Below the pieces are notes generated by a model. The model did not search any database and was not told the origin of the DNA. It saw nothing but the letters and a program-made list of their open reading frames with translations. A program made the translations under genes and the position numbers. Of a stretch of DNA of 35,696 nucleotides, positions 3,716-34,920 are shown piece after piece. Origin of the DNA: an uncultured Lachnospiraceae bacterium (lineage in GTDB: Bacteria > Bacillota > Clostridia > Lachnospirales > Lachnospiraceae); the NCBI GenBank assembly GCA_902767015.1, contig CACXFV010000020.1, positions 1-35,696 of the forward strand. The letters are read 5' to 3'. Each line of letters begins with the position of its first letter. Position 1 is the first letter of the stretch.

Positions 3716-6700
3716 TTATTCTGTTTCATCTGACTCCTTTTTCTTTAACTTAAGTGTAAGTCCCAGAGCACCGAGCGCTGTCACCATTGCACTGAATATT
3801 CCCCAAATTCCGGTATTGTCTCCGGTCTTTACGGAATGATCAGACTTTGACAATTGATCAGCCGGCCGATTAGCCGCATTGGCATTACCCATTGCACTGT
3901 CACGGGACAAATTGTCAGATGCAATCTCATTATATGCACTGTTATCAGTACTATTATTCTCTGTGCTATTATTCTCTATACTATTAGTGCTATTATCGCT
4001 GCCTCTGTTGTCCGTATTATCGCTACCACTATTATTATTGTCATTTGTATTATCTTCCGGCTCATTGTTGCCATCCGGTGTTTCAACCTTTTCCCTAAGT
4101 GCTTCAACTGCAGCATTAAGGGCTGATGTAGCAGCATCTATTTCTTCCTGAGTCGCATCTAAATTATCATATACTGTATTTGCTGCCTTTAATGCCTGAT
4201 TAAATCCTTCTACAGTTTCATCGGTATACTTGTCTGTTTCGATTTCACCTGCTTTTTCAACCGCCTCTTCAAGCGCAGCTCTGTCCCCTGCTTCTTTAAT
4301 TACTGTTCCTGAAGCTGTAGGATATCCGTATGACTGAACTGTAACCTCATATTTTGCATTTTCAGGAAATAATGTCGTTCCCCTTTTGCCTGTTGTCGCT
4401 GCATCAAGATTTACTGTACCATCTTCATTAAAGAGTACTGAACCTGCATTATTGATAACCTCTCCATTTACGGAAACTGATGAAATATTACCGATGTAAT
4501 CTGCAAGAGCAATTCCCTCCGGCAATACAAGTGCATTATTCTCTATAGACGCTTTCTCATTTACAGATTCTGAATTAAGCACAAAATTGACAATCACATC
4601 CTCATATTCAGCATCCTTGAATACCAATGTATACTGTCCGACACCTGTATTCTCTGTCTTATTGATGGTAAGCACCTGAGTTGTATCAGTATCAGACGCT
4701 GATAAGTGATTTTCGCTATCTGATGGTCCGCCAGCCAATAATACCTTGGCTTCTTCAACTGCCTCTATTGTATAATCCTTACCTGCCTCAAGTGTTTTTC
4801 CCTTAAAGTCAGCCTTTGCAAGAAGATAATGATTACCTGAAGGAGCTGTAATCGTAATATTTACTTTTACTCCATCCTTGAACTCTGCATCACCCTCCAC
4901 TTCTGCCGTTATACCTTGCGTTTTTTCTGTCAGCAATGTCTTAACTTTTAATTCTGTTTCCACAACTATATCTGCGCCATCTTTTACAAGATAAGTAATC
5001 TTTTTGATGGTCTTACCCTGAATATCTGCAAATCTCTCATAATCAAGTACATTGCCATGTGGCTCTGTAAAGCCTTCTGTTGCTGCAAATGACATCTCGT
5101 AGGTCTGGAACCAAAGATTTTCAAGATGTGTAAGACCATACTTTACGCCATCCGAGGTTTCTAATACACAACCAAGGACATTTTCTCTCTCTACAGGATT
5201 ATAGATTGCATCATTCTTATAAAGACTGATGAGATAATCGCCCCATCTGCTGTCTGTCGATATCTGTGCTGTAATATTTTTATCAGTCTCAACCTCTGTT
5301 ACCATTTTGCTAAAGGTTCCGTCACCATTTAAGATCTTATATTCTGCAGGTGTGTCAGCACCCTCTTCTATTAGTGTTGCATTCTTGACAAATTCTAATA
5401 CCTTATTGTTACTTGTCTGATTTTTCTCAATTGCATCTGATGCCTTAGCATATAAATCTGCCGGAATTGCAATATTGACATCTTTAAGTCCCTCAATGTC
5501 TACGCCGTTTTCTTTTTCCGTATAATAAGTTGCTGCAAAATTCTTAGATTTCTGGGTAGTAGCACTGCTGACTGCATCATACATACCCTTATCACGATAT
5601 CCGGCAGTGCTGACTTTATCCTCTGCCGTCAGATCAAGGTTTGGAGACTCCTTTACCTCTGTCAGTTCTCCATAATAGAAATCTGCATATGGCATATTCA
5701 CTGTTGCATACACATACTTATCAACCTTCTTTGTCACTTTACCTGATGCTGTCGGATATCCATCTGACTCAATAACAACCTCGTAATCGCCGTAATCAGG
5801 AAATAAGGTTGTCGCCCCACGGCCTTTTGTTGCTGCCAGCAGGTTGATGGTTCCATCTTCATTGCAGATAACAGCTGCTGCATTATTAACTGCCTTTCCA
5901 TTTACCTTGACTGCCGATATATTCTTAATATATGCGATTGTATCCACATCCTTAGGCAATACCAGTTTATTATCTTCTATTTCAGCTTTCTCATTTACCT
6001 GCTCTGAATTCAGTATAAATTCAGCCGTTACATCCTCATATTCTGCATCCTTAAAATTAACTGTATACTTACCAACACCTGTATTATCAGTCTCATTAAT
6101 TGTAATAACACCATCTGCATATGTATAATCTGTACCTGCGCTAAGTATCTTTCCTCCAAAAGTAATTGTATTGATTGTATATGTGTCTGCAGGTGTTGTA
6201 TTCTTAACATCAACCTTTTCACCACCCTGATACAGTGCTGCCTCTGTCTGTGGTGTTAACTCGATTGTCTGCCCATTATCAAGTAACTTCTTAACCTTTA
6301 AATTTGTGTTAATGACTACATCTGTTCCATCTTTTACAAGATAAGTGATCTTTTTAATGGTTTTGCCCTGAATATCTGCAAATCTCTGATGATCTAACAC
6401 ATTTCCATGCGGCTCTGTAAAGCCTTCCGTTACCGCAAACGAGAACTCATAGGTCTGGAACCAAAGATTTTCAAGATGTGTAAGACCATACTTTGCACCA
6501 TCCGCTGTTTCAAGTATGCAGCCCAACATTTCCTCTCTTGTCAGCGGATTGTAGGTTGCTCCATCTTTATACAGACTAATCAGATAATCTCCCCACACAC
6601 TACCTGTTGCTATTGTTGCTGTAATCTCTGTATCTTCTTTTACCTCAGTTACCATCTTTGTGAGTGTTCCATCGCCATTTAATACCTTATACTCTGACGG

Positions 6701-7528
6701 TGCCTCTGCATCCTCGTCGAGTAATGTCACATTACTTACAATGTCTAAAAGCTTATTATTGCAGGCGGTCTTATCAGCTATTGCAGACTTTGCCTTCTTG
6801 TAGAGACTCTTAGGAATTGCAACATATACATCCTTAATTCCTTCAATATCAACTCCATTTTCCTTCTCTGTATAATAATAGGTTGCCGCAAAATTCTTAG
6901 ACTTGTTTGTTGTTGCACTGCTGACTGCGTCATAGATACCTTTTTCACGATATCCTGCTTCTGTCACCTTATCTGCTGCCTCCAAATCTATATCTGCTGA
7001 TTCTTTAACATCATTTAACTCTCCATAATAGAAATCTGCATACGGAAGATTGACCGTTCCATATACATAACCTGTATCATCTTCTTTTACAGGTGCCTGC
7101 CTGATAGCATCAAGTGCGGCCTCTTTGATTGCTGATGATACAATCGTTGCGCTTGAAACAGTATCGCACTTTTCTATTGTCTCTACTGTTGCCGGCTGAC
7201 CCTTAAGCTGCGTAAGTATACCTTTCCTTTTAGACGTATTACTGTTCAATGCACCATTTAAATAGGAATCATTATTGGTGCTGTACGTATCACCTGTTTT
7301 CACTGTCAAGTTGTCTATAAGCCCATCTTTTACAACAATACTTACTGTAACATCATAGTCATCCCACTCCCATTCTTCCGGCTCATCATTGACTACATTG
7401 TACGCCTTAGAAGATGTATATGTACCATCTGCTGCTACTTCACTACCTGTTACGGCAAGACCTTGTACAGGGCAAGATGCTGCCACCATCGATAAAGCCA
7501 TAATACCGGCAAAACCTTTTGTAAGCAT
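3716..7528 (-). CDS. Cell-wall-anchored protein: FMN_bind-like domain, two Tp47-like modules, FIVAR domain, KTGD sorting signal
   Basis: A 1270-residue secreted protein. Order of parts: signal peptide (about 1-25); FMN_bind-like domain (about 35-142) with the flavinylation-like motif DTVSSAT at 122-128; two long modules (about 153-600 and 604-1078) that repeat with a period near 450 residues (HLENLWFQTYE at 351 and 801); a FIVAR-like helical domain (about 1082-1147); an Asn/Asp/Ser-rich spacer; then KTGD (1234-1237), a hydrophobic segment and KLKKK, a sortase signal of the KTGD type. Each module opens with YADFYYGEL and then YDAVSSAT. This closely resembles the N-terminus of Treponema pallidum Tp47 (YADYWAGEL, then DAVSRAT) and the Tp47 domain family. 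It follows the ApbE/FMN cluster on the same strand but behind a hairpin, so it may have its own promoter. The start is problematic; see the 7533-7561 entry. Confidence 0.8.
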   Translation of the reverse strand: MLTKGFAGIMALSMVAASCPVQGLAVTGSEVAADGTYTSSKAYNVVNDEPEEWEWDDYDVTVSIVVKDGLIDNLTVKTGDTYSTNNDSYLNGALNSNTSKRKGILTQLKGQPATVETIEKCDTVSSATIVSSAIKEAALDAIRQAPVKEDDTGYVYGTVNLPYADFYYGELNDVKESADIDLEAADKVTEAGYREKGIYDAVSSATTNKSKNFAATYYYTEKENGVDIEGIKDVYVAIPKSLYKKAKSAIADKTACNNKLLDIVSNVTLLDEDAEAPSEYKVLNGDGTLTKMVTEVKEDTEITATIATGSVWGDYLISLYKDGATYNPLTREEMLGCILETADGAKYGLTHLENLWFQTYEFSFAVTEGFTEPHGNVLDHQRFADIQGKTIKKITYLVKDGTDVVINTNLKVKKLLDNGQTIELTPQTEAALYQGGEKVDVKNTTPADTYTINTITFGGKILSAGTDYTYADGVITINETDNTGVGKYTVNFKDAEYEDVTAEFILNSEQVNEKAEIEDNKLVLPKDVDTIAYIKNISAVKVNGKAVNNAAAVICNEDGTINLLAATKGRGATTLFPDYGDYEVVIESDGYPTASGKVTKKVDKYVYATVNMPYADFYYGELTEVKESPNLDLTAEDKVSTAGYRDKGMYDAVSSATTQKSKNFAATYYTEKENGVDIEGLKDVNIAIPADLYAKASDAIEKNQTSNNKVLEFVKNATLIEEGADTPAEYKILNGDGTFSKMVTEVETDKNITAQISTDSRWGDYLISLYKNDAIYNPVERENVLGCVLETSDGVKYGLTHLENLWFQTYEMSFAATEGFTEPHGNVLDYERFADIQGKTIKKITYLVKDGADIVVETELKVKTLLTEKTQGITAEVEGDAEFKDGVKVNITITAPSGNHYLLAKADFKGKTLEAGKDYTIEAVEEAKVLLAGGPSDSENHLSASDTDTTQVLTINKTENTGVGQYTLVFKDAEYEDVIVNFVLNSESVNEKASIENNALVLPEGIALADYIGNISSVSVNGEVINNAGSVLFNEDGTVNLDAATTGKRGTTLFPENAKYEVTVQSYGYPTASGTVIKEAGDRAALEEAVEKAGEIETDKYTDETVEGFNQALKAANTVYDNLDATQEEIDAATSALNAAVEALREKVETPDGNNEPEDNTNDNNNSGSDNTDNRGSDNSTNSIENNSTENNSTDNSAYNEIASDNLSRDSAMGNANAANRPADQLSKSDHSVKTGDNTGIWGIFSAMVTALGALGLTLKLKKKESDETE

Positions 7529-29156: not shown

Positions 29157-30203
29157 TCAGGAACTGTTCCTTAGCTCCTTTTGCCTTTTCAGTCTCTCCT
29201 TCATCAGCTTCAGAAAATCTTCATTCCCCACCACCTTCATCAGCGGTCCATAAGAAAGTATTTCTATGAGCAGCTCAGTCTCATTTGCTCTGTTGTAATA
29301 GATATCGCACTGATAAAGGTCATCATGGAGATATGTAGTATTCTTTTTATAGTTTGCGAACTGAAGCATTGCGCGCTCGAGAGCATTTCGCTCATTTTTG
29401 ATCAGTACCGTGACAGGTTCATGATAATAACTGTTTACAATATATTCGTCAATATCCGGCAGTGTTTCCGGATAGTGGCGAGTAGGTTTAACATTGACAA
29501 TCCTGCTAACGTTAATGGTAAAAAAACGATACCGGCTTCGATTACGTGTCTCCAGCGCATAGAGCCGAAAAACATTGTTTTTTATGGAATACTCCAGTTT
29601 CGCAGGATAAAACCAGTGATGAATCCTCTTCGCAGTGTGGGACTGAAATTCAATCACCAGATATTCATGATTCTGAATGGCCTTTAGAATTGTTCTGAAT
29701 TTTTGACGGTAAATAGGATCAGAAAAATCATCACCATCTTCAAAACGGTCATAGTAGTAAAAATCACTCTGCCTAAAAAGAGGTTCTACCTCTTTTAAAC
29801 ACTCCTGCCATCTTTTTATCTCACTGTCTTTTAAAAATAACAGAATCCTCTCATCATTTAATAAGGTCTTCAGCCACCTCTTCTGCAAAACGGACATGGG
29901 AAGTGAAAACTTATTTTTAAGGACAGAGTAGTACATGTCATTTTTATTTTTACCATTGCCGGAATAAATGCCGCTGCTTTGATGAATACCATTATTAATT
30001 CCGTTGTTATTGTAATCCTCTTTGGACAACAACTGCCATCCTCCCTCCTCTGTCAGCTTTGGAATAAGGTATAACAAACTCTCCGAATAGCCAAGTTCAT
30101 TGATAATGTTATAGATTTCATTTATTGTCAATCCTTTATTACTACTTAATAATTCAGTAGTAATATGATAATAGCTATTGTAGATTTCAGAAAACAAATT
30201 CAT
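29157..30203 (-). CDS. WYL domain protein, probable regulator
   Basis: A 348-residue protein. The N-terminus (1-60) is a small helical region that may be a winged helix; residues about 62-90 are an Asn/Gly-rich linker; the WYL domain lies at about 170-240 (YLVIEFQSHT, WFYPAKLEYSIKNNVFRLYAL, RYRFFTINVSRIVNV) with a C-terminal extension after it. WYL proteins sense nucleic acids or nucleotides and usually regulate transcription. AAGGAGG lies 10 bases before the ATG. It follows the larger WYL gene in the same direction and both are divergent from rtcB, so they probably control RNA repair. Confidence 0.8.
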   Translation of the reverse strand: MNLFSEIYNSYYHITTELLSSNKGLTINEIYNIINELGYSESLLYLIPKLTEEGGWQLLSKEDYNNNGINNGIHQSSGIYSGNGKNKNDMYYSVLKNKFSLPMSVLQKRWLKTLLNDERILLFLKDSEIKRWQECLKEVEPLFRQSDFYYYDRFEDGDDFSDPIYRQKFRTILKAIQNHEYLVIEFQSHTAKRIHHWFYPAKLEYSIKNNVFRLYALETRNRSRYRFFTINVSRIVNVKPTRHYPETLPDIDEYIVNSYYHEPVTVLIKNERNALERAMLQFANYKKNTTYLHDDLYQCDIYYNRANETELLIEILSYGPLMKVVGNEDFLKLMKERLKRQKELRNSS

Positions 30204-30281: not shown

Positions 30282-31691
30282 TTAATTCTCATAATATCCA
30301 TATAATTTTTGAATATCGTACAGAAATTTTTTACGCAGAAATTCATATTCACGCTGCTTCTCGCCCTGCTCATCCACCGCAAAAAAATGAATATCAATAA
30401 TCCTTCCGATAAATGTTCTCAGCCACGGAAACATTTCATTGGCATCAAATACAATCTTTTCAAATAAATAGGTATTGGGAGCAAGTCTCCTGCAGATGCC
30501 TCCCCGTCCCTCTTTTTTTAGCCTATTCAGAATAAACATTTCATACTCTTCATTAACGGAGAGTGTCAGTTCTAATTTTTCACGATGATTTTGCTTATGG
30601 TCAGAGCTGAAAGAGGTGCCCCATACATAATTTAGGTTTTGCTGCAATTTTTCAACCATCTCATCATAATGTGCCACTATCTCCTCATAATGCATAACCA
30701 TCTCACATGGGTGCTTTTCCTTCCCACATGGATTCGCTACCATTTTATCATGGTTTTCCACCATCTTATTGTTATGTACCATCGAAACCTTTTTTATCAT
30801 ATCCAGACGCACACATTTAAAACGGTAGCGAATTTCCCTATTTTGTTTTTTCACCACGCCATAAAAACATAAAAAGCGCCGACCTGTTCCGGTACTGACA
30901 AATATCTTGAGCGGCATGCCATATTCTATCCCCGACAAAGAATTTTTCCTGTTGCCGGATATTTCCATTGTAATCAGTTTCTTTTCATGAATAGCAGTAA
31001 TCAGCGAAAAAAGAATGCCGTCCTCCAGTGTAAAGACAGGAAAATCATGTTTTACGCGAAAAATAGTATTTTTCATATGCTGACTATCCAAAATAGTACT
31101 GCCGATATAGCCGAAAGGTGCACAGAGCTGGTAAAAGCATATGGCAGTTAACATCTCTTTCTCCCCTGCCACGCCCTCAGCCAGTTCATTATATGTCATT
31201 GATTTTTGATAAAGAAGTGTTTTTCCTGCCTTTTGGGTAATTAATAAACCTTCCTCCACATACTCATTACATTTTCTTCTCACAATCTGGGTGTCAAAAG
31301 TAACCCCATAATTCTCTGCAATTTTGTCAGCAATCTCCATGGCAGACAGCGCATTAGCAGCATTTTGTTCTCCCAGCACATCTAAGATAAAAAAATGCAG
31401 CAGAATATCATTGTCCGTAAAGCTCTTCACTTTCCAGAGACGAAACAGAGGATTGGTGTCAAACAGATTGGAATCTATCTGAAGGGAAACATTCTTACTT
31501 TTATCACAGGGATTCAGAGCAGTATGAACATACTCAGACAACCAGCTCTCAATTCGTCTCCGCTCATCATCATATGTACGGGCACTTTTCTTCGAAAAAT
31601 CGTTCCTGCTCTTGAAGCCATAAATAAAGAAGTCTCTGACATAGTCCCTGCATTTATCTATTGTTTTGATTAATTCATGAAATTCTGACAT
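30282..31691 (-). CDS. WYL domain protein with a heptad-repeat insertion, probable regulator of rtcB
   Basis: A 469-residue protein. A helical N-terminal part is followed by a winged-helix-like region (about 90-165: DILLHFFILDVLG, AMEIADKIAENYGVTFDTQIVRR) and a WYL-type domain (about 225-300: KKLITMEISG, YGMPLKIFVSTGTGRRFLCFY). Between this and the C-terminal domain lies a run of seven-residue units of the form x-MV-x-[HN]-x-[ED] with a Cys-containing break. The start at 31691 is preferred because the predicted promoter places the transcript start near 31714, downstream of the ATG at 31730. It is divergent from rtcB with a 96-base gap. Regulatory role inferred. Confidence 0.72.
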   Translation of the reverse strand: MSEFHELIKTIDKCRDYVRDFFIYGFKSRNDFSKKSARTYDDERRRIESWLSEYVHTALNPCDKSKNVSLQIDSNLFDTNPLFRLWKVKSFTDNDILLHFFILDVLGEQNAANALSAMEIADKIAENYGVTFDTQIVRRKCNEYVEEGLLITQKAGKTLLYQKSMTYNELAEGVAGEKEMLTAICFYQLCAPFGYIGSTILDSQHMKNTIFRVKHDFPVFTLEDGILFSLITAIHEKKLITMEISGNRKNSLSGIEYGMPLKIFVSTGTGRRFLCFYGVVKKQNREIRYRFKCVRLDMIKKVSMVHNNKMVENHDKMVANPCGKEKHPCEMVMHYEEIVAHYDEMVEKLQQNLNYVWGTSFSSDHKQNHREKLELTLSVNEEYEMFILNRLKKEGRGGICRRLAPNTYLFEKIVFDANEMFPWLRTFIGRIIDIHFFAVDEQGEKQREYEFLRKKFLYDIQKLYGYYEN

Positions 31692-31720
31692 GTTCGCAAC
31701 CTTTTTGAAATGATAATAAA

Positions 31721-31749
31721 ATCTTAACATGTTATGCTCTGTATGTCAA
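31721..31749 (-). promoter_or_regulatory. Sigma-A promoter for the WYL genes with overlapping palindrome
   Basis: On the minus strand TTGACA (31749-31744) and TAAGAT (31726-31721) are 17 bases apart. The palindrome TAACATGTTA (31725-31734) overlaps the -10 box and may be an operator. The plus-strand rtcB promoter is less clear: TTGAAA at 31705-31710 is the best -35 candidate, also running through this palindrome, so one site could control both directions. Confidence 0.62.
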
Positions 31750-31787
31750 AAGAAATCAGTAATATGAAAGATAAAAGAGGTGGCAAT

Positions 31788-33017
31788 ATGTTTGTACATT
31801 ATAAGGATACCAGATTTCCTATTAAAATCTGGTTAAAGGGATTGGAAAATATTGAGGAGAGCTGTTTGGAACAGGCAAAACATCTTGCCAGCCTTCCTTT
31901 TATTCATAAATGGGTGTGTCTGATGCCGGATACTCACACAGGAAAGGGAATGCCGATTGGCGGCGTGATTGCCACTAATAATGTGATTATTCCCAATGCA
32001 GTAGGTGTCGATATCGGCTGTGGCATGAATTTTATCGATACCAATATTCAATTGGACGATATTAAAGAAATCATCACCGGAAATGGTTCTCTTATACAGC
32101 TGATCATTAATAATTTTATGAGAAATATTCCTGTCAATCAGGCAAGACACAAAGAAAAGCAGCCATCCGAAGTTCTGGACAGAGCATTGGGGGAATTGGA
32201 TAAATATGAAAAAAATCCTGGGCTGCTCCCACTGATAGAAGATGGCTATTATCAGGTAGGAACCCTTGGAGGCGGAAACCATTTTGTGGAGCTGCAGGCC
32301 GATGACGATGGATATCTGTGTATCATGATCCACTCCGGCAGCCGTCATATGGGCAAAGCTGTCTGTGATTTTTTTCAAAATAAGGCGAGAGAACTGAATA
32401 CCAAATACTACAGCATGGTGCCGGATGAATACAGACTTGCCTTTTTGCCGGTAGACAGTGAAAAAGGCAGAGAGTATATCCACTGGATGCAGCTTTCCAT
32501 GGACTATGCATTTGAAAACAGAGCCCGGATGATGGAAGTAGCGAAGCAGGCATTTTATGATGCAGTGACAAAACATACCCAACTGAACGTAGTATTTGGC
32601 GAAGAAATTAACTGTCATCATAATTATGCTGCCATAGAAAATCATTTTGGTAAAAATGTGTGGGTTCACAGAAAAGGAGCCAATCGGGCACGAGTGGGAG
32701 ATAAGGCAGTGATTCCGGGTGCCATGGGAAGCTACAGCTATGTCGTAAAGGGTCTTGGTAATCCTGACAGCTTCTGTTCTTCTTCCCACGGAGCCGGCAG
32801 AGCATATTCGAGAACCGGTGCGAAGCAGGCATTTACGGTGGAGCAGGTCATGGTAGATTTAAAAAATCAAGGCGTGGTTCTGGGAAAGACCAAAAAGCAG
32901 GATGTTGCCGAGGAATGCCGGTTTGCATATAAAGATATTGATACTGTCATGGAAAACCAGCGAGATCTGGTAGAACCGGTCAGAAGGCTGAAAACAGTAG
33001 GCGTGTTAAAGGGGTAA
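31788..33017 (+). CDS. rtcB: RtcB family RNA ligase
   Basis: A 409-residue 3'-phosphate RNA ligase that joins 2',3'-cyclic phosphate or 3'-phosphate ends to 5'-OH ends using GTP and Mn2+. All active-site blocks are present: VGVDIGCGM with metal-binding Cys78, GGGNHFVEL, IHSGSRHMG, NCHHNYA, VHRKGANRA, PGAMGSYSYVVKG and SSSHGAGR, whose His (334) is the guanylylation site. The start at 31788 has GAGGTG about 7 bases upstream; earlier in-frame ATGs lie before that SD. Length suits the shorter bacterial RtcB type. No RtcA, archease or PrfH gene is seen. Divergent WYL regulators, a downstream tRNA-like RNA and a slipin suggest a stress-induced RNA-repair locus. Confidence 0.96.
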   Translation: MFVHYKDTRFPIKIWLKGLENIEESCLEQAKHLASLPFIHKWVCLMPDTHTGKGMPIGGVIATNNVIIPNAVGVDIGCGMNFIDTNIQLDDIKEIITGNGSLIQLIINNFMRNIPVNQARHKEKQPSEVLDRALGELDKYEKNPGLLPLIEDGYYQVGTLGGGNHFVELQADDDGYLCIMIHSGSRHMGKAVCDFFQNKARELNTKYYSMVPDEYRLAFLPVDSEKGREYIHWMQLSMDYAFENRARMMEVAKQAFYDAVTKHTQLNVVFGEEINCHHNYAAIENHFGKNVWVHRKGANRARVGDKAVIPGAMGSYSYVVKGLGNPDSFCSSSHGAGRAYSRTGAKQAFTVEQVMVDLKNQGVVLGKTKKQDVAEECRFAYKDIDTVMENQRDLVEPVRRLKTVGVLKG

Positions 33018-33060
33018 AACGTCACCATATGCTCCTGATTTTCCTGCGGCATATGAAGGT

Positions 33061-33156
33061 GTAAGACATGGATTTACAGGGCATGAACATGAATTTACAG
33101 GATATAAATCTGTAAGACATGAATCTGCAAGACATGTATCTGTTAGACATGAATTG
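33061..33156 (+). repeat. Degenerate 15-bp tandem repeats downstream of rtcB
   Basis: Three consecutive 15-base units, GTAAGACATGAATCT and two variants, occupy 33112-33156. A related unit starts at 33061 and partial ones lie between. In one plus frame they encode VRHES-ARHVS-VRHEL type five-residue units, ending at a TAA near 33175. That frame is offset from rtcB: it would be entered only by a shift just before the rtcB stop (reading GKTSPYAPDF...). No start codon with an SD serves it. Confidence 0.55.
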
Positions 33157-33212
33157 ACAGACCATACATTTGTATAAGAAAATATAACGAAAGTAATGTG
33201 CTGTATGAGAGT

Positions 33213-33290
33213 ATGGAAGAAGAGTTTCAAAAAGGCTCTTATCTGCTCCATGATGCCGAAAGGTATATCGTACATCACTTTGATCTATAG
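33213..33290 (+). other. Small open frame or gene remnant
   Basis: A plus-strand frame encodes MEEEFQKGSYLLHDAERY and seven more residues to a stop at 33288. The composition looks like real protein and the frame stays open upstream to about 33160, but there is no convincing SD. It could be the decayed end of a gene once located after rtcB. I do not recognise it. Confidence 0.2.
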
Positions 33291-33337
33291 CATATGTGTT
33301 TTATCACACATGCTCATCAATATTAATTGATGAATTG

Positions 33338-33356
33338 GAATGACTGTTAATCATTC
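33338..33356 (+). other. Anticodon-arm-like hairpin (GTT)
   Basis: GAATGA-CTGTTAA-TCATTC is a 6-bp stem with a 7-base loop whose middle triplet is GTT, as in tRNA-Asn. It lies 17 bases upstream of a T arm. No D arm or acceptor partner fits, and the spacing to the T arm is too long for a class I tRNA, so it is not called a tRNA. It may be an outer helix of the tRNA-like RNA that follows. A further hairpin TCATCAAT-atta-ATTGATGA precedes it. Confidence 0.35.
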
Positions 33357-33361
33357 TCAAA

Positions 33362-33432
33362 ATCATGGGTGTTGTCGGTTCAATTCCGACCGGAGTCTGC
33401 TCCGTAGCTCAATTGGTAGAGCACCATCTGAT
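33362..33432 (+). ncRNA. Circularly permuted tRNA-like RNA, YrlA-like Y RNA candidate
   Basis: In order: strand ATGG (33365-33368); 5-base variable-type loop GTGTT; T arm GTCGG-TTCAATT-CCGAC (33374-33390); closed acceptor hairpin CGGAG-tctg-CTCCG (33391-33404); U8-A9 equivalent TA; D arm GCTC-AATTGGTA-GAGC (33407-33422) with the conserved GG; A26 equivalent; then CCAT (33424-33427), pairing with the first ATGG. Every inter-helix spacing equals that of a tRNA, but the 5' and 3' halves are swapped and the anticodon stem is the open end. As I recall, YrlA Y RNAs have this layout, with the Ro-binding helix in place of the anticodon stem. Pairing extends by ATC/GAT. An alternative closing helix is 33365-33373 with 33434-33442 (8 of 9 pairs). 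Its place between rtcB and the slipin fits an RNA-repair role. The exact ends are unknown. Confidence 0.6.
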
Positions 33433-33476
33433 GAAAACCCATAAGGGTAATGGTATTTTGACGGTTCGAATCCGTC
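33400..33476 (+). ncRNA. Overlapping linear tRNA-like fold lacking an acceptor stem
   Basis: The same D arm (33407-33422) is also followed, in normal tRNA order, by ACCAT (33423-33427) pairing with ATGGT (33450-33454), a 5-base linker ATTTT and a second perfect T arm GACGG-TTCGAAT-CCGTC (33460-33476). The anticodon loop would be 22 bases and contains ACCC-ataa-GGGT. The bases after the T arm (CCTTAAC) do not pair with CTCCG, so no acceptor stem forms. This fold excludes the permuted one because both use CCAT. It could be the remains of a tRNA gene, a second Y-RNA module, or an alternative state. Confidence 0.45.
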
Positions 33477-33581
33477 CCTTAACAGAAAGCAATTTTGTGT
33501 TTCTCCTACCGGTGTCTTCTGCCGGACGGTCTGAAAAATCAGCAGAAACAGGATACCGCAGATACTTCACGAACAAAGAAT

Positions 33582-33600
33582 ACTGTCATCATATGACAGT
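33582..33600 (+). terminator. Strong hairpin downstream of the tRNA-like RNA
   Basis: ACTGTCAT-cat-ATGACAGT is a perfect 8-bp stem followed by TTTCTG. The T run is short, so it may be a 3'-end stabiliser or weak terminator for the rtcB or ncRNA transcript. Confidence 0.35.
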
Positions 33601-33612
33601 TTCTGAAAATAA

Positions 33613-33798
33613 TCTGTAAACGCAAAAGTTAGTTTTCTCGGACAGCACTGTACCGGCAAACAACTTAAAAGAGACAGAGGCTTTCTCCTGAAGAATCTGC
33701 TTAATGAATCTCCATTTCGATGACAGTGGAGAAACAAAATTTGCGAAACAATATATGAGTTTTGTCCGAATCTGATGATTGTCACGATGCGGCACTGA
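33613..33798 (+). other. Possible decayed coding sequence or dispersed repeat
   Basis: One plus frame is open from 33613 to 33798 apart from one TGA at 33721. It contains FLGQHCTGKQLKRDRGFLLK before and NKICETIYEFCPNLMIVTMRH near the end. The opposite strand is also open. I do not recognise a family. From memory, similar short translations occur in related genomes, which would fit a dispersed repeat; this is unverified. Confidence 0.25.
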
Positions 33799-33831
33799 AA
33801 CTTGTTTATACCGGAAAGGAATGGTAAAAAA

Positions 33832-34920
33832 ATGAAAACAATTATAAAGGATAATGAAATAGGATTTTTGATGAAAAACGGTAGATTTGAAAAGCTTTTG
33901 AAATCAGGCAGGTACAATATCACTGCATTTCTCGGTTATACCGTTGAAAAGGAAGAATGTAGAGGGGAAGTTCAGTTTAACTCTGTACCGTACAGCATCC
34001 TTGCACAGGACAGCCTGTTTTCACAGTCAACTGTAAGATATGAAATCCCTGACGGATACATAGGTTTTATCTATAAGAATGGTAACCTTATTTCGGCAAC
34101 CATAAAGCAGGAGTATGTCTTTTGGAACATATTTGACAGAATGGAGATACGGCTTGTATCTATGGATGAGACAGAGATAAAGAATCTGTCAAAGGCACAG
34201 CTTGAAAAACTTCCGATAAAATATTACTCCCAAATCGTAGTGTCAGAGGGAGAGGTTGCACTCATCTATTACGATAAAATCTATAAAAATACAGTAGGTC
34301 CGGGCGCCTATTATTTTTGGAATTACAATACAAGCGTCACCGGTGTGGTTGTCAACGTGAAATGGAAGGAGCTGCTGGTGGCAGGTCAGGAAATTCTCAC
34401 AAAGGATAAAGTAGGCATCAGAATGAATATCAATGTCAACTACAGAATTGTAGATGCCAAGGAATCCTATGCAACAAGAAAAGATACCGAAAAACAGCTA
34501 TATTCTTTTGTACAAATGGCTGTGAGGGAGCTTGCAGGAGAATATAAGCTGGATGAAATTCTTGAGAGAAAGGTTGAATTGTCTGATGCACTGAATGAGA
34601 AACTTAAGAAAAATGAGGGCGATTTCTTTGTGGAATTTCAGGAAGCAGGAATCAAGGATATCATTCTTCCGGGAGAAATCAGGGATATTATGAATACTGT
34701 TTTAATCGCCGAGAAGAAAGCGCAAGCCAATGTGATAGAAAGAAGAGAGGAGGTTGCTTCAACCCGCTCACTGCTTAACACGGCAAAGCTAATGGACGAA
34801 AATGCGACCTTGTATCAACTGAAACGATTGGAATATCTGGAAAGAATCTGTAGTCAGGTGGGCGAAATATCTGTATCCGGAAAAGGAGATTTAATCGATC
34901 AACTTAGCAAATTAATATAG
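33832..34920 (+). CDS. Slipin family protein (SPFH/band 7 domain)
   Basis: A 362-residue protein. The SPFH domain lies at about 140-300 (VVSEGEVALIYYDKIYKNTVGPGAYYFW, then ELLVAGQEILTKDKVGIRMNINVNYRIVD, VQMAVRELAGEYKLDEIL, GIKDIILPGEIRDIM) and a helical C-terminus follows (EKKAQANVIERREEVASTRS, LNTAKLMDENATLYQLKRLEYLE), as in slipins. The N-terminal 130 residues contain two more divergent copies of the GxIGFxxKNGxxxxxxxxGxY motif. There is no strong N-terminal membrane helix. The start at 33832 has AGGA about 11 bases upstream. Slipins are recurrent neighbours of rtcB in bacterial RNA-repair operons; their role there is unclear. It ends before a strong terminator. Confidence 0.85.
   Translation: MKTIIKDNEIGFLMKNGRFEKLLKSGRYNITAFLGYTVEKEECRGEVQFNSVPYSILAQDSLFSQSTVRYEIPDGYIGFIYKNGNLISATIKQEYVFWNIFDRMEIRLVSMDETEIKNLSKAQLEKLPIKYYSQIVVSEGEVALIYYDKIYKNTVGPGAYYFWNYNTSVTGVVVNVKWKELLVAGQEILTKDKVGIRMNINVNYRIVDAKESYATRKDTEKQLYSFVQMAVRELAGEYKLDEILERKVELSDALNEKLKKNEGDFFVEFQEAGIKDIILPGEIRDIMNTVLIAEKKAQANVIERREEVASTRSLLNTAKLMDENATLYQLKRLEYLERICSQVGEISVSGKGDLIDQLSKLI

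Follow-up and report, generated by a model that had tools for sequence, protein, structure and literature searches.

The window analyzed here is a stretch of 35,696 nucleotides from an uncultured Lachnospiraceae bacterium (contig CACXFV010000020.1 of assembly GCA_902767015.1). Two genes of its forward strand, rtcB and a gene coding for an SPFH/Band-7 protein (slipin), are separated by a noncoding interval (33017 to 33832) which carries a tRNA-like RNA. Between positions 33361 and 33432, a T arm is followed by a closed acceptor hairpin, a D arm and an open helix at the anticodon position, i.e. the arms of a tRNA in circularly permuted order. A first-pass annotation of the sequence had described such an element at this place. 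Pfam matches bear out the identity of both flanking genes (Table 1), and the T arm, acceptor hairpin, TA dinucleotide and D arm are all in position, but the closing strand forms only four of its five pairs. Comparison with relatives confirms that the element beside rtcB is genuine: its helices covary, and it mimics a tRNA in circularly permuted order, with the shape of YrlA.

Structure and conservation of the permuted core

Covariation among relatives, proposed as a check in the first-pass annotation, was assessed on an alignment (A2) of 46 cores, 45 of them distinct and the window included. Its rows were picked by a structure parser demanding pairing, which 48 of 84 regions passed, L046 and L004 being removed afterward. 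The permuted structure is paired in 92.3% of the cells against 65.9 in shuffled alignments, a percentage inflated by this choice of rows. Both partners change at 16 of the 19 pairs, including all five pairs of the closing helix and all five of the acceptor, in agreement with a 24-row subset of the same alignment (A4). In total, 215 cells are changed on both sides, compared with 67.5 after shuffling and 24-63 if one partner is shifted by one to three columns. Unaided, RNAalifold recovers the identical four helices (17 pairs). In the window alone, the minimum free energy (MFE) fold of 33334-33434 contains the same T, acceptor and D arms, with the closing helix in a slightly shifted register. The fold energy is only modestly better than that of shuffled sequences (z -2.17, -1.82 and -1.90), 8, 10 and 12 of 200 shuffles folding equally well.

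Relatives of the slipin gene came from whole genomes and from 80 loci of named genomes, which were the 80 best among 547 confirmed. A covariance model, R2, was trained on 24 cores of relatives, excluding the window. It scores the window RNA at 58.2 bits (E 2.7e-22), within the range (56.3-78.4 bits) of 55 of the 80 slipin loci, of which 24 are its own training rows. Sixteen further loci have best scores of 17.8-27.2 bits. These low scorers are mostly of the Oscillospiraceae type, with a T arm, a closed acceptor and a shorter D-like arm. At an E-value of 0.001, R2 has no match in nine of the 80 loci (L038, L067, L072, L081, L089, L093, L095, L096 and L107), two of which, L038 and L072, have almost no upstream sequence. 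A tRNA-type T arm is present in 78 of the first 84 upstream regions, mostly 240-580 bases 5' of the slipin gene, and six parsed loci have it farther away. The slipin gene itself is patchily distributed, with 8/291, 11/392 and 6/398 of the genomes sampled in the class, order and phylum, respectively, the window's own genome being counted each time. Its company with the RNA spans many genera and more than one phylum. None of 82 pattern matches in viral contigs was a relative, and the phage records searched gave no slipin match.

Among Rfam families, the YrlA model (RF02553) aligns with 33343-33451 over all its 114 positions (47.3 bits, E 1.2e-9 in a 401-base search). It also aligns with the related loci L113 (47.0 bits), L114 (45.7 bits) and L044 (37.4 bits), all below the gathering score of 69. 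The YrlA-model check suggested by the first-pass annotation thus returned the full-length match but not the score. The tRNA model (RF00005) reaches 29.0 bits, exactly its cut-off, at 33404-33477, where positions 7-64 of 71 are aligned and the acceptor is not covered. ARAGORN predicted no tRNA gene in the window, and a simple linear tRNA was rejected. The RF00005 match combines the D arm with a second T arm located farther 3', which is also found in 34 of the 84 T-arm loci, and the window element can be read as a fused tRNA-like pair whose inner acceptor strands pair together.

Ordinary tRNA genes have to be considered in this context. Matches to another model, R1, occur in 59 of 60 genomes and are mostly longer than true cores. 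The two inspected were ordinary tandem tRNA genes, and most of the remaining ones were assigned to this class by length alone. Tandem tRNA genes are a confounder and a likely origin of the RNA.

Table 1. Features of the window discussed in the text
Feature	Position	Strand	Remarks
WYL2, WYL regulator	29157-30203	-	PADLOC WYL model E 1.5e-9; no Pfam match
WYL1, WYL-type regulator by homology	30282-31730	-	own Pfam match not significant; L057 homologue hits PF13280; synteny
rtcB	31734-33017	+	PF01139 E 1.4e-111; sole RtcB match in own genome (G000, 96.7% complete assembly)
Upstream hairpin P1	33252-33269	+	GAT-GCC-gaaa-GGT-(at)-ATC with AU bulge; read by eye
Anticodon-arm-like hairpin	33337-33357	+	GGAATGA-CTGTTAA-TCATTCT; loop 33344-33350; in MFE fold
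Permuted tRNA core	33364-33428	+	closing helix encloses T arm, closed acceptor and D arm; matched by R2
Closing (anticodon-position) helix	33364-33368 with 33424-33428	+	5/5 pairs in relatives, with changes on both sides
T arm 1	33374-33390	+	GTCGG-TTCAATT-CCGAC; sequence and models R1, R2 and Rfam YrlA
Closed acceptor hairpin	33391-33404	+	CGGAG-tctg-CTCCG; no CCA end
TA dinucleotide	33405-33406	+	between acceptor hairpin and D arm
D arm	33407-33422	+	GCTC-aattggta-GAGC, loop with GG; changes on both sides in 3/4 pairs
Single A	33423	+	separates D arm from 3' closing strand
Small hairpin	33437-33448	+	ACCC-ataa-GGGT; between D arm and second T arm; minimum-energy basis only (MFE fold of 33334-33480, not centroid)
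Second T arm	33460-33476	+	GACGG-TTCGAAT-CCGTC
Conserved box GGATACCG	33551-33558	+	5' of slipin gene
SPFH/Band-7 (slipin) gene	33832-34920	+	PF01145 E 4.4e-29; ATG 33832 preferred to listed TTG 33802 from homologue alignment

Several further arrangements were observed. A permuted core (R1, 61.1 bits) lies between rtcB and the gene of a protein of at least 467 residues lacking a Pfam match (L113, G010:C34:71221-71293). Another (52.1 bits) lies 5' of the gene of a DUF2828/DUF7788 protein (L114, G028:C9:8869-8937), which we take to resemble Ro60/TROVE with its vWA domain; neither belongs to a tRNA array, and both have partner proteins of another kind. L106 carries, 5' of its slipin gene, a tandem pair of permuted cores (4602-4735; 67.5 and 60.9 bits), and L221 two units of T arm and closed acceptor in a row, as seen by eye. 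The genome of the window also contains an odd, low-scoring tRNA of 36.7 bits (L164, around 1501-1570; G000:C7:9769-9838), followed by a reading frame which by its look is presumably a NifB-type radical SAM gene.

Anticodon-loop hairpins

Directly 5' of the permuted core, the window carries a hairpin whose seven-base loop is the anticodon loop of tRNA-Asn(GUU); this hairpin and the second T arm were absent from the first-pass annotation. The frequency of such loops among relatives was measured against 44 distinct anticodon loops from 156 distinct real tRNAs, an incomplete set. Exact identity was counted because it avoids choosing a motif after the fact. The regions were set by the positions of the T arms, and seven of 91 upstream sequences, which have no T arm, were left out, giving 84 loci. 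With stems of at least four pairs, 23 exact loops were found in 22 of the 84 loci against 0.35 in shuffled sequences (maximum 2 in 200 sets). With stems of at least five pairs, 13 were found in 12 loci against 0.14 (maximum 1 in 200 sets). For stems of at least five and at least four pairs, respectively, slipin coding DNA gave 0/199 and 1/621 and the opposite strand 1/205 and 1/378, while loops written backwards gave none. The exact loops of relatives are those of Asp, Tyr, Phe, Gly, Leu, Lys and Glu tRNAs; His and Ile are represented by the triplet only.

Definitions by motif were counted as well. Seven-base loops with U33 and R37 make up 33 of 61 hairpins around the cores (shuffles, 3.6 of 29.6) and 46 of 132 (shuffles, 5.0 of 38.7) once the conserved boxes are used to delimit the region. 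The stricter C32-U33-A37 form accounts for 25 of these 132, compared with 0.33 in shuffles and 1 of 218 hairpins in slipin coding DNA. Since the loci are related, one locus per cluster of 70% slipin identity was also counted, and nine of the 30 representatives have a CU...A hairpin versus 0.17 after shuffling (maximum 2). A held-out set consisted of 12 new loci and the previously seen L132. Eight of the 12 have a T arm, five of them (L216-L220) from one genus; they have no 30-mer in common with each other or with the older loci. L035 and L036 are near copies. These eight contain three exact loops (Asp in L217, Leu in L219 and Asn in L222) against 0.064 expected from shuffling, and none of 1000 shuffle sets reaches three.

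Two classes of hairpins are sets of positional homologues. Class A, with a stem mostly of AGAC/GTCT just 5' of the second T arm, is present in 19 of the 34 loci with two T arms. Fifteen of its hairpins have a seven-base loop, with A37 in all 15, U33 in 13 and nine different triplets (GUA, UAA, GAA, GUU, UGA, GUG, GUC, UUU and UUC). Class C, whose stem pairs ACAC or GCAC with GTGT, occurs in nine of the 84 loci, with C32 and A37 in all nine, U33 in seven, and the triplets GUC, UCC, UAA and ACC. Over both classes, the seven-base loops have A37 in 24/24 and U33 in 20/24, while positions 34-36 comprise 11 triplets. The constancy of the stems is partly built in, because the sets were picked by stem pattern.

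The cleanest molecule is the held-out L222, in which T arm, closed acceptor, two bases, D arm, one base and an anticodon arm (CTCGA-CTGTTAA-TCGAG) follow one another with the spacing of a tRNA. In effect, it is a whole tRNA-Asn in permuted order with its opening at the variable loop. RNAfold recovers its arms for 71 bases and loses the D arm when more flanking bases are included.

Additional loops were seen elsewhere. About 40 bases 5' of the first T arm, L056, L060 and L061 have a second hairpin with the loop CTTGGGA or TTAGGGA, resembling proline anticodon loops with G37, and these RNAs may display two anticodons. In L092, L094 and L224, the closed acceptor hairpin itself has an anticodon-type seven-base loop (CTGTTAA, CTGTAAT and CTGTCAA, respectively).

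Gene company and possible roles

The steady partner of the RNA is the Band-7/SPFH (slipin) gene, and an RtcB homologue is encoded within the examined flank of 54 of the 80 loci. In many Lachnospiraceae, the gene order is WYL genes, rtcB, RNA and slipin; in loci of the Oscillospiraceae type, it is WYL genes, RNA, slipin and an rtcB of about 28% identity. In nine loci without rtcB in the flank, the neighbors tested by Pfam belong to ordinary families or to none. PADLOC detected only its WYL model in the window. Elsewhere in the window, positions 3716-7528 code for a protein of 1270 residues with Shr-like heme-binding domains (PF07550).

In Citrobacter, Burkholderia and Photobacterium, the slipin gene follows that of RtcR. 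A sigma54-like site with one mismatch to the consensus is located 5' of the RNA in all eight proteobacterial loci, six of which are close Enterobacteriaceae alleles; in 9 kb of L196, there are two sites with up to two mismatches. The E. coli element is weak, matching only part of R1 (12.1 bits) and neither the tRNA nor the YrlA model, and nothing clear emerged from folding the proteobacterial relatives (z -1.36, -0.96 and -0.07). Among 5426 complete E. coli genomes, 1621 contain 80% or more of the E. coli locus. In L196 and L199-L203 (E. coli and Citrobacter), a gene with a nucleotidyltransferase domain lies 3' of slipin. In the E. coli genomes whose flanks were viewed, the locus is placed between yjbD and lysC.

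Two motifs flank the RNA: hairpin P1 and the box GGATACCG. A script looking for a loose P1-shaped motif detected it in 66 of 84 loci, a count made without a chance control, and missed the copy of the window. Downstream of their T arms, 59 of 84 loci have the sequence GGATACC, compared with 2.2 in mononucleotide shuffles. A long closing helix between GGTATnCC on the 5' side and GGATACCG on the 3' side was considered and dropped, its pairing being, by eye, not consistently extended in Oscillospiraceae-type loci. GGTATnCC is also able to pair inside the P1 hairpin.

This RNA probably takes part in RNA repair, either as a partner or as a target. Of what the first-pass annotation had offered, the best fit is a new tRNA mimic which RNA repair uses as a scaffold or acts on as a target, and the anticodon hairpin strengthens this fit. 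Our tentative preference is for a noncoding RNA of an RNA-repair locus which would bait or sense anticodon nucleases, could be resealed by RtcB and would be held by a ring of the SPFH protein. Its acceptor is closed and devoid of CCA, and the RNA should therefore not carry an amino acid. The SPFH protein would form a soluble ring or cage holding the RNA, whose anticodon hairpin would serve as bait or gauge. Candidate anticodon nucleases are of the colicin E5, PrrC or VapC types. Cleavage would produce 2',3'-cyclic phosphate and 5'-OH ends kept together by the stem of the hairpin, and RtcB would reseal them. As RtcB can reseal cut ends, the bait would be reusable. Once cut, the RNA may in addition act as a signal to the WYL or RtcR regulator, and the anticodon would have been swapped over evolution, tracking the nucleases encountered. 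Asn, Asp, Tyr and His triplets would presumably fit colicin E5-type cutters. The elaborate form of this proposal is somewhat less likely: a reusable, anticodon-programmable bait combining a permuted mimic excluded from translation, one or more loops, their evolutionary swapping, RtcB resealing and an SPFH ring or cage perhaps like a simple vault.

At the level of sequence, covariation, models built without the window, the excess of anticodon loops, the placement of the genes and published background appear to support the bait or sensor. Damaged tRNA controls the rtc operon (PMC7790460). The authors of the same study suggested that the tRNA-like domain of YrlA is a competitive inhibitor of anticodon nuclease (PMC7790460), an idea which the RNA described here makes directly testable. 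An RNA displaying exchangeable anticodon loops beside RtcB names candidate attackers for each locus. If the proposal is true, SPFH proteins would have an RNA role.

Several observations weigh against a bait or sensor. Sixty-two of the 84 loci have no exact real loop in the identity test, and the weaker U33/R37 definition also fits 30 of 218 hairpins in slipin coding DNA. Four of the 19 class A hairpins have loops of five or eight bases, and the E. coli alleles and Citrobacter show, by eye, no anticodon-type loop. RtcB was not found in the examined flank of 26 of the 80 loci, some of whose contigs end early, and resealing would thus not always be local. No cognate nuclease was identified among the few neighbors examined. 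In Salmonella, YrlA itself is uncut by the nuclease (PMC7790460). Finally, the anticodon loops may be relics of tRNA ancestry.

Among the alternatives, the strongest, yet rather unlikely, is an uncut scaffold. As for YrlA with Ro60, the tRNA-like body would tether tRNA-binding or repair enzymes (RtcB, modification enzymes or RNases) to the SPFH ring, its loops only keeping it recognizable as a tRNA. The YrlA model fits the window RNA, L113, L114 and L044, albeit below its cut-off, and a bacterial Y RNA can be superposed on tRNA as a circular permutation (PMC11472068). The model of the SPFH protein is similar to stomatin, prohibitin and HflK/C, and along almost its entire length also to major vault protein. 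A scaffold leaves unexplained, however, why the anticodon triplets vary between constant flanking bases.

An improbable explanation is a regulatory leader, in which the RNA would belong to the slipin transcript and control slipin, for instance by sensing tRNA damage or tRNA-recognizing factors, with P1 and GGATACCG as switch parts. Wherever found, the RNA is 5' of slipin on the same strand, with the conserved box and a P1-like hairpin, and in Proteobacteria it is 3' of the sigma54-like site. Yet its distance from slipin varies from about 240 to more than 1000 bases (about 2.9 kb in L049), and a cis-regulator has no need of varied anticodons.

A permuted pre-tRNA, whose ends RtcB would join and which would become a functional tRNA once its closed acceptor is opened, in the manner of certain algae and archaea, is very improbable despite the permuted order, the near-perfect permuted tRNA-Asn of L222 and the adjoining rtcB. 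The closed acceptor helices of parsed loci have 4-8 pairs and loops of 2-13 bases, the window has no CCA, and the anticodon hairpin is, by eye, outside the tRNA position in the window and many other loci. Functionless debris of two tandem tRNA genes, the refuting case named by the first-pass annotation, is hardly credible: tandem tRNA genes do match R1 and may be ancestral, and Photobacterium has two tandem linear tRNA-likes (54.1 and 46.4 bits) in the same place, as Burkholderia apparently does (by eye, with no Rfam match), but mere debris is disfavored because the acceptor and closing helices covary, and the slipin company across genera and phyla and the excess of anticodon loops also stand against it.

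Comparison with known systems

Like YrlA (RF02553; PDB 6CU1), the RNA has its T arm, closed acceptor and D arm in the rotated order of a permuted tRNA; it is also located near rtcB and is fitted by the YrlA model from end to end. It differs in its score, in having an SPFH partner instead of Ro60/Rsr, and in its anticodon hairpin, GGATACCG box and P1-like hairpin. In the RF02553 alignment, the Ro60-binding stem of the window is poorly formed, with several non-standard pairs, as judged on the window sequence alone. No TROVE gene (PF05731) was detected in 60 genomes by a search whose control was positive in 1 of 14. These genomes are the window's own and those of 59 relatives; the first-pass annotation had noted that no Rsr gene is in the window. 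A search of the window's genome for DUF2828 gave no match, its control being equally silent. From the sub-threshold score and the lack of TROVE matches, the earlier suggestion of a Lachnospiraceae Y RNA proper was rejected.

Other systems combine some of the same components. Anabaena TrcR represses rtcB, a slipin gene and a 26-tRNA operon (PMC10272220), the P. aeruginosa rtc locus contains an SPFH gene (PMC13086221), and TROVE with a tRNA-like partner is named as a repair platform in a survey of jumbo phages (PMC7824862). The likeness of the slipin to the vault (major vault protein with vault RNA) is limited to about 10% identity with an rmsd of 5.6-8.3, other SPFH proteins outscore it over the SPFH part, and the cage is an analogy only. 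Circularly permuted tRNA genes of some algae and archaea have rotated tRNA halves and yield working tRNAs; the rotated order is common to both, whereas the acceptor of the window RNA is a short closed hairpin, and the sampled genomes contain ordinary tRNA genes with identical anticodon loops.

In the titles, abstracts and passages covered, no published account of anticodon hairpins or of their exchange was found. It thus appears that this kind of tRNA-like RNA was already known, the hairpins and their exchange being the part for which we found no published description. Burroughs and Aravind (NAR, 2016) reportedly proposed SPFH/Band-7 modules as scaffolds with a cognate novel tRNA-like RNA in RNA-repair systems. 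The analysis found a tRNA-like RNA adjoining an SPFH gene at loci with RtcB or RtcR, and the window RNA very probably belongs to the same family as their SPFH-associated molecule.
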